Shown: positions 35,988-48,326 of the stretch, piece after piece
Position numbering within the stretch: position 1 is the first letter of the stretch
Layout of the letters: each line of letters begins with the position of its first letter
DNA from: Xinfangfangia pollutisoli
Lineage (GTDB): Bacteria > Pseudomonadota > Alphaproteobacteria > Rhodobacterales > Rhodobacteraceae
Reading direction: 5' to 3'
Length of the DNA: 51,330 bases
NCBI RefSeq assembly: GCF_020179405.1
Contig: NZ_JAICBZ010000020.1
Coordinates: forward strand, 1-51,330
Program-made: the position numbers and the translations under genes
The notes under the pieces: model-generated
Told to the model about the DNA's origin: nothing
Databases searched by the model: none
Seen by the model: the letters and a program-made list of their open reading frames with translations, nothing else

Positions 35988-36321
35988 GGCCGTCCCTTCC
36001 CCTAGGTCAGGGCAAGGCCCTGCGCGTTGCACCCTCCGATGCCCTCGGATGGCGACATGGGCATAAGGCCCGAATTTTCCAGCAAAGGGCAAGGGCAGAG
36101 CTTTGATAGCGCTTTGAATCCGCGCCGCTTCGGGTTTATCGAAAGATCAGGAATTCATCAAAGCCGCTGAAATAAATCACGTTTCCGTGCACCCCAGCCA
36201 TGCCCTCGCCGCATGGCAGCATTGCGGGATGTGTCTATTGTGCAGTTGCAGCAAAAGGCGCATGTTACCCCTAACAGAGCGGCAGAAAGCTGCATCAGAC
36301 GAAATCGAAGGCAAGAGCATC
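35988..36321. other. Divergent intergenic region mrp / DUF1127
   Basis: A 334-bp region with lower GC around 36110-36180. It should hold the mrp promoter and that of the DUF1127-sRNA operon (candidate at 36238-36266). No gene is seen. Confidence 0.5.
36238..36266 (+). promoter_or_regulatory. Candidate promoter of DUF1127-sRNA operon
   Basis: TTGTGC at 36238-36243 and CATGTT at 36261-36266, spacer 17. The -10 resembles RpoH-type CATNT boxes; in R. sphaeroides the homologous operon is RpoHI/RpoHII-dependent. Confidence 0.35.
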
Positions 36322-36537
36322 ATGGCTTACGTAACCTCCACCCGCGCCATCGCACCCCGTCAAGCCGAACGGTTTTCCGGCCTCTTCGCCGGCCTCGGCG
36401 CGGCGCTTGCGCGCCGCCGGGTCTACACGCGCACCCTGTCGGAGCTGCGCCAGCTGAGCGACCGTGAACTTGCCGATCTGGGCATTTCGCGCGTCTCGCT
36501 GGTCGACATCGCCCGCGAGGCTGCCTACGGCCGCTAA
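36322..36537 (+). CDS. DUF1127 small RNA-binding protein, CcaF1-like
   Basis: A 71-residue basic protein. The last ~40 residues form the DUF1127 (YjiS-like) domain: TLSELRQLSDRELADLGISRVSLVDIAREAAYG. In R. sphaeroides the DUF1127 protein CcaF1 is encoded just before the CcsR sRNAs, binds RNA and takes part in sRNA maturation and turnover. Here the gene is followed within 20 bases by an array of CcsR-like hairpins, so one stress-induced transcript probably yields the mRNA and the sRNAs. ATG at 36322 follows GAAGGCAAGAG. Confidence 0.9.
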   Translation: MAYVTSTRAIAPRQAERFSGLFAGLGAALARRRVYTRTLSELRQLSDRELADLGISRVSLVDIAREAAYGR

Positions 36538-36555
36538 GGCCGACGAGATTGATTG

Positions 36556-36655
36556 CAGGGACCCCTCTCCTCCTCCCTCGGGGTTCCCATAGCAAGCGGC
36601 GCCGCTGCTCCTCCTCCCTGGCGGCGCCGCGCTTTCCATAAGGGGCCCTGGCCCC
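36556..36655 (+). ncRNA. CcsR/cuckoo-like sRNA unit 1
   Basis: Hairpin 1 at 36558-36588 (GGGACCCC / GGGGTTCCC arms) and hairpin 2 at 36596-36630 (GCGGCGCCGC on both sides). Both loops hold CTCCTCCTCCC. The third hairpin is a variant, GGGGC-CCTG-GCCCC, at 36642-36655, unlike the GCAA-loop hairpin of units 2-6. Confidence 0.85.
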
Positions 36656-36666
36656 GATCCGGTTCG

Positions 36667-36761
36667 GTGGCCCTCTCCTCCTCCCTCGGGCCTTCGAAAC
36701 AGCGGCAGCCCCCTCCTCCTCCCTGGGGCTGCCGCACCCTCTTCCGGCCCGGCAACGGGCC
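36667..36761 (+). ncRNA. CcsR/cuckoo-like sRNA unit 2
   Basis: Hairpin 1 at 36669-36692 (GGCCC / GGGCC), hairpin 2 at 36702-36735 (GCGGCAGCCCC / GGGGCTGCCGC), both with CCTCCTCCC loops. Hairpin 3 at 36746-36761 is GGCCCG-GCAA-CGGGCC, a GNRA tetraloop. Confidence 0.88.
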
Positions 36762-36771
36762 AAGCTATCGG

Positions 36772-36869
36772 CGGCCCCTCTCCTCCTCCCTCGGGGCAGT
36801 CTGATCAGCGCAGCGGTGCCGCTCCTCCTCCCTGGCACCGCTGCCACCCTTTCGGCCCGGCAACGGGCC
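36772..36869 (+). ncRNA. CcsR/cuckoo-like sRNA unit 3
   Basis: Hairpin 1 at 36774-36797 (GCCCC / GGGGC), hairpin 2 at 36810-36844 (GCAGCGGTGCC / GGCACCGCTGC), CCTCCTCCC loops. Hairpin 3 with GCAA loop at 36854-36869. Confidence 0.88.
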
Positions 36870-36876
36870 AGCATTT

Positions 36877-36976
36877 CGGCGGCCCTCTCCTCCTCCCTCG
36901 GGCCGCTGGAGCACAGCGACGGTGCCTCTCCTCCTCCCTGGCACCGTCGCGCCCCTTTTCGGCCCGGCAACGGGCT
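36877..36976 (+). ncRNA. CcsR/cuckoo-like sRNA unit 4
   Basis: Hairpin 1 at 36879-36906 (GCGGCCC / GGGCCGC), hairpin 2 at 36916-36950 (GCGACGGTGCC / GGCACCGTCGC), CCTCCTCCC loops. Hairpin 3 with GCAA loop at 36961-36976, closing with a G-U pair. Identical over 107 bases to unit 5. Confidence 0.88.
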
Positions 36977-36983
36977 AGAGTTT

Positions 36984-37083
36984 CGGCGGCCCTCTCCTCC
37001 TCCCTCGGGCCGCTGGAGCACAGCGACGGTGCCTCTCCTCCTCCCTGGCACCGTCGCGCCCCTTTTCGGCCCGGCAACGGGCT
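36984..37083 (+). ncRNA. CcsR/cuckoo-like sRNA unit 5
   Basis: Hairpin 1 at 36986-37013, hairpin 2 at 37023-37057, hairpin 3 at 37068-37083. It is an exact 107-bp tandem copy of unit 4. Confidence 0.88.
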
Positions 37084-37090
37084 AGAGTTT

Positions 37091-37189
37091 CGGCGGCCCT
37101 CTCCTCCTCCCTCGGGCCGCTGGAGCACAGCGACGGTGCCTCTCCTCCTCCCTGGCACCGTCGCGCCCCTTTCGGCCCGGCAACGGGCC
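37091..37189 (+). ncRNA. CcsR/cuckoo-like sRNA unit 6
   Basis: Hairpin 1 at 37093-37120, hairpin 2 at 37130-37164, hairpin 3 at 37174-37189. It differs from unit 5 by loss of one T before hairpin 3 and by CGGGCC in place of CGGGCT. Confidence 0.88.
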
Positions 37190-37198
37190 AGGATTTCG

Positions 37199-37273
37199 GT
37201 GGCCCTCTCCTCCTCCCTCGGGCCGCTGGAGCACAGCGGCGGTGCCTCTCCTCCTCCCTCGGCACCGCCGCAT
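37199..37273 (+). ncRNA. CcsR/cuckoo-like sRNA unit 7 (last)
   Basis: Hairpin 1 at 37201-37224 (GGCCC / GGGCC), hairpin 2 at 37236-37271 (GCGGCGGTGCC / GGCACCGCCGC), CCTCCTCCC loops. There is no GCAA hairpin; a pyrimidine-rich run (about 37272-37321) follows and may mark the transcript end. Confidence 0.85.
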
Positions 37274-48045: not shown

Positions 48046-48120
48046 GCGGGCGTAGCTCAGGGGTAGAGCATAACCTTGCCAAGGTTAGGGTCGTGAGTTC
48101 GAATCTCATCGCCCGCTCCA
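48046..48120 (+). tRNA. tRNA-Gly (anticodon GCC), copy 1
   Basis: 75 nt including an encoded CCA. The acceptor stem GCGGGCG / CGCCCGC, D arm GCTCAGGGGTAGAGC, anticodon loop TTGCCAA with GCC, and T arm with GTTCGAATC fold normally. Reads GGC/GGT glycine codons. Confidence 0.97.
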
Positions 48121-48251: not shown

Positions 48252-48326
48252 GCGGGCGTAGCTCAGGGGTAGAGCATAACCTTGCCAAGGTTAGGGTCGT
48301 GAGTTCGAATCTCATCGCCCGCTCCA
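48252..48326 (+). tRNA. tRNA-Gly (anticodon GCC), copy 2
   Basis: 75 nt, identical to copy 1 in sequence, with encoded CCA. Flanks differ and it has its own promoter, with a terminator between the copies, so the two are separate transcription units. Confidence 0.97.

Follow-up and report, generated by a model that had tools for sequence, protein, structure and literature searches.

The 51,330-base stretch analyzed here (the window) carries a DUF1127 gene followed by a tandem array of seven two-hairpin RNA units. Judged by sequence comparison, this is a real and well-conserved locus of the CcsR/CIN1 type, with an array that is unusually long though not unique. An earlier, sequence-only reading had filed it as a DUF1127 gene with a CcsR/cuckoo array, and sequence, structure, covariation, gene order, and co-occurrence all support that assignment. 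We consider it very probable that what stands here is this genome's version of the ccaF1-CcsR (CIN1, cuckoo RNA) stress operon, giving rise to processed sRNAs with anti-Shine-Dalgarno (anti-SD) loops.

Gene, hairpins, and RNA family

The gene occupies 36322–36537 on the + strand (ATG at 36322, stop codon ending at 36537) and encodes a CcaF1-like DUF1127 protein of 71 aa (PF06568, E 5.6e-11). The first stem of the array begins 21 nt past the stop codon in the same orientation, placing a short DUF1127 gene directly upstream, as is characteristic of CIN1. The motif CCTCCTCCC is found 14 times in the window, always on the + strand and within 36569–37258, downstream of the gene, and zero times on the opposite strand. 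A loop-anchored stem finder returned 14 hairpins in 7 pairs with stems of 8–13 bp (8–13 bp in the first hairpin of a pair, 11–12 bp in the second), separated by 3–8 nt between pair partners and by 29–34 nt between units. The 12-mer CTCCTCCTCCCT lies in 14 of 14 loops (0.01 copies expected; a count of 14 was reached by none of 100 shuffles), as does CCUCCUCCC, the loop sequence that marks CIN1/cuckoo hairpins. When folded, the segment 36538–37273 has a free energy of −408.5 kcal/mol, compared to −323.6±5.3 kcal/mol in 20 shuffles (z −16), and each of the 14 loops stays unpaired. The gene followed by seven two-hairpin units, and the single loop sequence common to all hairpins, are thus confirmed as the sequence-only reading had described them.

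All units and spacer hairpins lie on the + strand. Unit 1 (36558–36630; hairpins 36558–36587 and 36596–36630) scores 55.2 bits against the CcsR1 model and is followed by a spacer hairpin, GGGGC-CCTG-GCCCC (36642–36655), with a z of about 0 by itself. Unit 2 (36663–36735; hairpins 36663–36698 and 36702–36735; CcsR1 48.7 bits) and unit 3 (36770–36844; hairpins 36770–36801 and 36810–36844; CcsR1 38.8 bits) are each followed by a spacer hairpin with a GCAA loop (36746–36761 and 36854–36869). The same loop recurs in the spacers behind unit 4 (36874–36950; hairpins 36874–36911 and 36916–36950; spacer hairpin 36961–36976), unit 5 (36980–37057; hairpins 36980–37019 and 37023–37057; spacer hairpin 37068–37083), and unit 6 (37087–37164; hairpins 37087–37126 and 37130–37164; spacer hairpin 37174–37189). 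Unit 7, the last (37194–37271; hairpins 37194–37231 and 37236–37271), has a pyrimidine-rich tract after its second hairpin. The addition of a GCAA-tetraloop hairpin to units 2–6, as previously claimed, is borne out by five copies of CCCGGCAACGGG (0.03 expected), each 3′ of one of these units; the CCCG-GCAA-CGGG hairpin is therefore present in five of the six spacers, and the spacer between units 1 and 2 has another hairpin.

Scoring the units with covariance models against the background of shuffled sequence had been proposed as a check on the sequence-only reading, and the outcome leaves that reading standing. The CcsR1 model (RF02791) matched all seven units (38.8–55.2 bits, E 1.7e-12 to 1.3e-7), and the ar14 model (RF02344) matched six of them over its whole length (40.6–50.6 bits, E 5.6e-8 to 9.5e-6), with only a partial match to unit 2 (17.2 bits, E 1.5). 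No unit reaches the gathering score that Rfam sets for either family (65.3 bits for CcsR1, 58.8 bits for ar14); a CcsR1 match above 65.3 bits is present in 1 of 13 genus genomes. A gathering-threshold Rfam search of the window reports only two tRNAs. These two tRNA genes (48046–48117 and 48252–48323) lie on one strand, 134 nt apart, with identical sequence and score (68.7 bits). Across the 4.41-Mb genome, the seven window units were the only CcsR1 matches at E≤0.01, with 150 of 4,146 first-look candidates scored. Among 14 unrelated control genomes, the CcsR1 model also matches in two at E≤0.01 and in one at E≤0.001, so weak single matches mean little. 6C RNA (RF01066) was rejected as an assignment, its best match (34.3 bits, E 0.02) lying below the gathering score of 47.

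The locus resembles ccaF1 (RSP_6037)-CcsR1-4 of R. sphaeroides in having a 71-aa DUF1127 protein followed directly by tandem two-hairpin RNAs with CCUCCUCCC loops; it differs in having seven units rather than four, and in the GCAA-loop hairpin borne by five of its spacers. Cuckoo RNAs/CIN1 (Reinkensmeier and Giegerich 2015) likewise combine a short DUF1127 gene with CcsR-like sRNAs in alphaproteobacteria, and as far as CIN1 is represented in the papers citing it, copy number alone sets the present locus apart. Alpha-r14 (RF02344; NfeR1 of Sinorhizobium meliloti) shares hairpins with CCUCCUCCC anti-SD loops, which in NfeR1 are described as silencing mRNAs redundantly. However, alpha-r14 has three anti-SD hairpins in one RNA, whereas the window has two per unit in a tandem array behind a DUF1127 gene; its hairpins are paired, and the spacer hairpin has no anti-SD loop.

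Compensatory change and spacer hairpins

Covariation was assessed over 19 base pairs in 46 distinct genus units, using five measures and 500 shuffles. Both sides have changed in 16 of the 19 pairs, compared to 10.3±1.5 in shuffled alignments, and 87.0% of cells pair, compared to 77.1±0.8%; neither value was reached by any of the 500 shuffles. Further pair types, another of the five measures, numbered 41 versus 37.1 in shuffled alignments, a value reached by 34 of 500. Pairing falls to 37–53% when the partner is slid by 1–3 columns, and although kinship among the sequences inflates covariation scores, the contrast with this slid control is large. The second stem is 98.7% paired and the first 73.7% in the genus-unit alignment, in which MAFFT partly misaligned the first stem and from which RNAalifold recovered the second stem only. 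The loop core shows little or no variation and the stems change with compensation; this combination of conserved loops and compensating stem drift is the pattern of a pairing loop.

We compared 135 spacers of 25–55 nt, 38 from the genus and 97 from other loci. All except one (134 of 135) fold at ≤−6 kcal/mol. The median spacer fold is −11.2 kcal/mol compared to −8.7 in equal-length windows drawn from the opening 700 nt of these loci, and a fold of −9 is reached by 85% of spacers versus 49% of control windows, the copies in both comparisons not being independent. Only 13 of 38 genus spacers and 38 of 97 others have z<−2 relative to their own shuffles; because single spacers often fail to beat these, the case for a spacer hairpin rests on recurrence and position. 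In genus spacers, the stem usually starts ∼9–11 nt 3′ of hairpin 2, and the first 10 nt of the spacer are richer in A+T than the sequence further in (53% versus 24% in the genus, 51% versus 31% in other loci). Across 35 distinct genus spacers, 139 of the 140 cells of the four inner stem pairs hold a standard pair, and each of the four uses several pair types; this count leans toward pairing because the stem was picked by the fold.

With 8 of the 35 distinct spacers, GCAA is the commonest spacer loop in the genus; the window contributes four of these, and L057, L059, L064 (same in L065), and L066 contribute one apiece. L063, which lies outside this count, has a GCAAA loop on a near-identical stem. 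At 8 of 35 spacers, the GCAA tetraloop was rejected as a universal signal; a spacer hairpin of some sequence is the general feature, and GCAA is one form only. The literature searched, which did not extend to the primary cuckoo (2015), Gruetzner 2021, and Billenkamp 2015 descriptions, yielded no account of such a hairpin. The spacer may comprise an RNase E cleavage site with a boundary hairpin behind it. RNase E-dependent 3′ ends are described for CcsR1-4 of R. sphaeroides (PMC7866481).

Genomic setting, distribution, and growth of the array

A DUF1127 ORF is present in 46 of 51 loci selected for their arrays, and in 40 of the 45 loci with a value, 19–36 nt separate the DUF1127 stop codon from the first loop motif. 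The search for this ORF found none in the remaining five loci (L081, L088, L092, L099, and L106), so the linkage between array and gene is not absolute. One genome, G238, has eight CcsR1 matches over six contigs, and its fetched loci, L099 and L106, are two of these five. Within the genus, array and DUF1127 homologue stand side by side in 12 of 13 genomes, and both are absent from the thirteenth (G010, 390 contigs). Only 11 of 20 loci fetched through DUF1127 similarity have at least two loop motifs; among the other nine, L012 ends 159 nt past the gene. Two compound loci, L071 and L022, have four and three DUF1127 matches, respectively, amid anti-SD loop motifs. A divergent mrp gene accompanies 52 of 72 loci, including all 12 genus loci, and a BenE gene 18 of 72, six of the 12 genus loci among them, these loci being of differing length.

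Two conserved elements lie upstream of the gene. The inverted repeat GCCATGC-N7-GCATGGC (36197–36217) is a possible regulator site; its ATGC-N7-GCAT portion is shared by every one of the 15 upstream sequences compared, and the exact core is found at two places in the genome, the mrp/DUF1127 intergenic region and contig C135. It could serve either mrp or the DUF1127 gene, since it lies between the two divergent genes. The second element, TTGTGC-N15-CGCATGTT (36238–36266, + strand), is a conserved block in the same 15-sequence alignment, with TTGTGC followed by CNCATGTT in 12 of 15 regions. We take this putative promoter to be close to the heat-shock sigma consensus, and the promoter of the locus is probably of the RpoH type. 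A site scan of the locus found no sigma-70-type site and no terminator-like site, the last unit included.

Four CcsR units have been published for R. sphaeroides (PMC10253847), and the claim that seven exceeds this known cluster holds. The count in relatives, a comparison also called for by the sequence-only reading, gives a divided answer: seven is the most among the 11 complete arrays of the genus (the others have 6, 5, 5, 5, 4, 4, 4, 4, 4, and 4) but is not exceptional in the family. A further genus array (L063 of G008) runs off its contig end, with one full unit parsed and two CcsR1 matches, and is not among the 11. CcsR1 matches are present in 12 of 13 genus genomes at E≤0.001 and in 205 of 248 family genomes. 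Among these 205, 50 have one match, 38 two, 49 three, 34 four, 22 five, 4 six, and 5 seven, with one genome each at eight, ten, and eleven; these totals come from strict filters that may miss weak units, and they do not always represent one array. Seven-unit arrays are present in G063 (14 hairpins), G100 (seven consecutive matches, 14 hairpins), and G161 (seven consecutive matches, 13 hairpins parsed, 14 motifs), genomes chosen for high counts or scores, so seven units is no record. The family therefore holds at least three such arrays besides the window, as seen in the 39 further positive genomes inspected in detail. G030 (L078) and Tropicimonas (L019) have 13–14 hairpins in a different layout and were not counted. 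The DUF1127-plus-array layout is common in the family, and copy number alone is at the high end. A plasmid-borne origin was rejected as far as one collection tells: its 72,556 plasmid records contained no DUF1127 match and no DNA match covering more than 8% of the query.

Units 4, 5, and 6 of the window are identical over their two-hairpin stretch, which indicates that recent duplication accounts for part of the array's growth. These units also contain the longest exact direct repeat (192 nt, period 107), and because this repeat sits in a 188-contig draft assembly, the true copy number may differ slightly. For each genus unit, we asked whether the best match in another genome shares its position class (first, second, middle, or last), leaving L063 out of the test. 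The class agrees for 44 of 52 units versus 13.5 expected (first 11/11, second 8/11, middle 16/19, last 9/11), and for 30 of 38 versus 9.8 expected when L064, L065, and L066, close relatives of L057, are dropped; none of 2,000 permutations reaches this agreement in either set. Unit 2 of the window, for example, has 92% identity to unit 2 of L057 and L065, while the last unit is an exception, with 91% identity to a middle unit of L062 versus 90% to the last unit of L056. Across species, the units at the first, second, and last positions mostly keep their positional identity, and the middle units multiply.

Anti-SD loops, candidate targets, and alternatives

The loops had earlier been called SD-mimicking, a polarity that must be reversed because they are anti-SD sequences: CCUCCUCCC is published as an anti-SD sequence that pairs with the SD (PMC3927594, PMC10746234). 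The loops would hence mask the SD of target messages. In NfeR1, three anti-SD loops are described as silencing mRNAs redundantly in trans by pairing at the start region (PMC10746234). In R. sphaeroides, CcsR1-4 are reported to be released as separate sRNAs by RNase E cleavage, and PNPase to lower the levels of CcsR products (PMC7866481); CcaF1 affects CcsR maturation, and the CcsR RNAs interact with Hfq (PMC10253847, PMC8307010).

We propose that a single promoter, probably of the RpoH type, would produce a precursor containing the DUF1127 mRNA and seven two-hairpin RNAs. RNase E would cut the unpaired linker of ∼10 nt between the second hairpin of a unit and the spacer hairpin, yielding CcsR-like sRNAs, and the DUF1127 protein would bind RNA and modulate this maturation. 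Each sRNA would then expose two identical anti-SD loops (CUCCUCCUCCCU) able to pair with an extended SD (AGGGAGGAGGAG or parts of it), and this pairing would keep a set of mRNAs for transport and C1 metabolism from being translated. Copy number may shift through tandem duplication of the middle units. The proposal builds on gene, structure, covariation, conservation, gene order, and duplication as observed in this analysis, and takes from the published parts of the R. sphaeroides and S. meliloti work its co-transcription, RpoHI/HII promoter, RNase E/PNPase processing, and anti-SD loop redundancy. Where exactly the cut falls, what the spacer hairpin does, which mRNAs are targeted, and the dosage effect of the expansion, which the sequence-only reading had also suggested, are inferences on our part.

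An exploratory search for candidate targets found the 9-nt loop complement before an ATG at two sites in the genome. The pattern GGAGGAG-N3-11-ATG has 65 genome sites, compared to 3 for a reversed-pattern control, and GGGAGGA-N5-13-ATG has 41, compared to 8; this excess reflects SD function and does not show that the sites pair with array loops. The array-less thirteenth genus genome has 48 GGGAGGA sites, inside the genus range of 40 to 103. Contig C108, which makes up 1.0% of the genome and was singled out post hoc, after the data had been seen, holds 5 of the 41 GGGAGGA sites (P 6.2e-5 before correction for 188 contigs) and 3 of the 65 GGAGGAG sites (P 0.029). Its six distinct sites belong to genes for a PQQ methanol/ethanol-family dehydrogenase (TIGR03075), a methanol-related c-type cytochrome (TIGR03874), a MoxR-type ATPase, a LuxR-type response regulator, a TRAP binding protein, and one protein without a family match. 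Start regions of the methanol/C1 genes of C108 and their neighbors (L167, 482–19390; L168, 10132–11202) carry loop complements of 7–8 nt.

All five genus genomes that have the dehydrogenase (13 searched) carry GGGAGGA ahead of both the dehydrogenase and the cytochrome gene, and three of the five (G009, G011, and G012) are close relatives with nearly identical sequence there; seven genus genomes have the array and no such dehydrogenase match. Pairing with 16S rRNA would cover only about GGAGG of GGGAGGA. The comparison does not support flhR as a direct target conserved across genomes, the window's own genome alone having 7 nt matched at the SD: the SD match of the flhR-like gene is 6 nt in three relatives and 4 nt in G003, and the 7-nt matches of two relatives lie ∼30 nt upstream of the ATG, not at the SD. 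The C108 candidates agree with the published effect of CcsR on FlhR and C1 metabolism (PMC8307010, PMC10253847).

Three other explanations of the array deserve consideration. Many identical loops, encoded just downstream of a DUF1127 gene, would also fit a sponge that binds and titrates a protein, either Hfq or the DUF1127 protein, with mRNA pairing secondary; the effect of CcaF1 on CcsR maturation and the CcsR-Hfq interaction in R. sphaeroides point the same way (PMC10253847, PMC8307010). We regard this as improbable, since CCUCCUCCC is an anti-SD sequence and a sponge is a poor fit with the 50 of 205 positive family genomes that have a single CcsR1 match, even if the strict filters may miss weak units. 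Action in cis is likewise unlikely, indeed quite so. The hairpins would then be a 3′ UTR that stabilizes or tunes the DUF1127 mRNA, the C-rich loops idle in trans, in keeping with the very stable fold (z −16) and with a first stem that, in the majority of parsed loci, begins within ∼20 nt of the stop codon (21 nt in the window). What speaks against it is that conservation peaks in the loops, the stems drifting with compensating changes; the related anti-SD loops of NfeR1 silence in trans (PMC10746234), and R. sphaeroides CcsR1-4 are separate sRNAs (PMC7866481).

That the array is a protein-coding or selfish repeat and not a set of RNA genes we find scarcely credible. Long ORFs do run through it on both strands, but repeat spacings of 107, 107, and 106 break the frame, which led us to reject a coding repeat. 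Compensatory stem changes, position-specific similarity across genomes with kept gene neighbors, and the lack of a further CcsR1 match in the genome also argue against either form. We therefore favor the ccaF1-CcsR-type operon with anti-SD sRNAs. One extension of it we advance only tentatively, considering it possible rather than probable: CcsR arrays may be modular dose tuners, with fixed first, second, and last units, multiplying middle units, and the spacer hairpin with its AU-richer linker as a third module that sets equal cutting. Here, the array would directly repress the methanol/C1 cluster, whose dehydrogenase and cytochrome c mRNAs have loop-complementary SD extensions beyond the 16S pairing.

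The locus is ordinary in kind, and it offers a usable comparison: 4 to 7 units within one genus (11 complete arrays), units with mostly positional identity, and a hairpin in nearly every parsed spacer. This variation in unit number, the positional identity, and the spacer hairpins make it testable in a laboratory strain whether unit number sets the strength of the stress response and whether the spacer hairpin directs RNase E. The same comparison also yields a concrete set of candidate targets in C1 metabolism.
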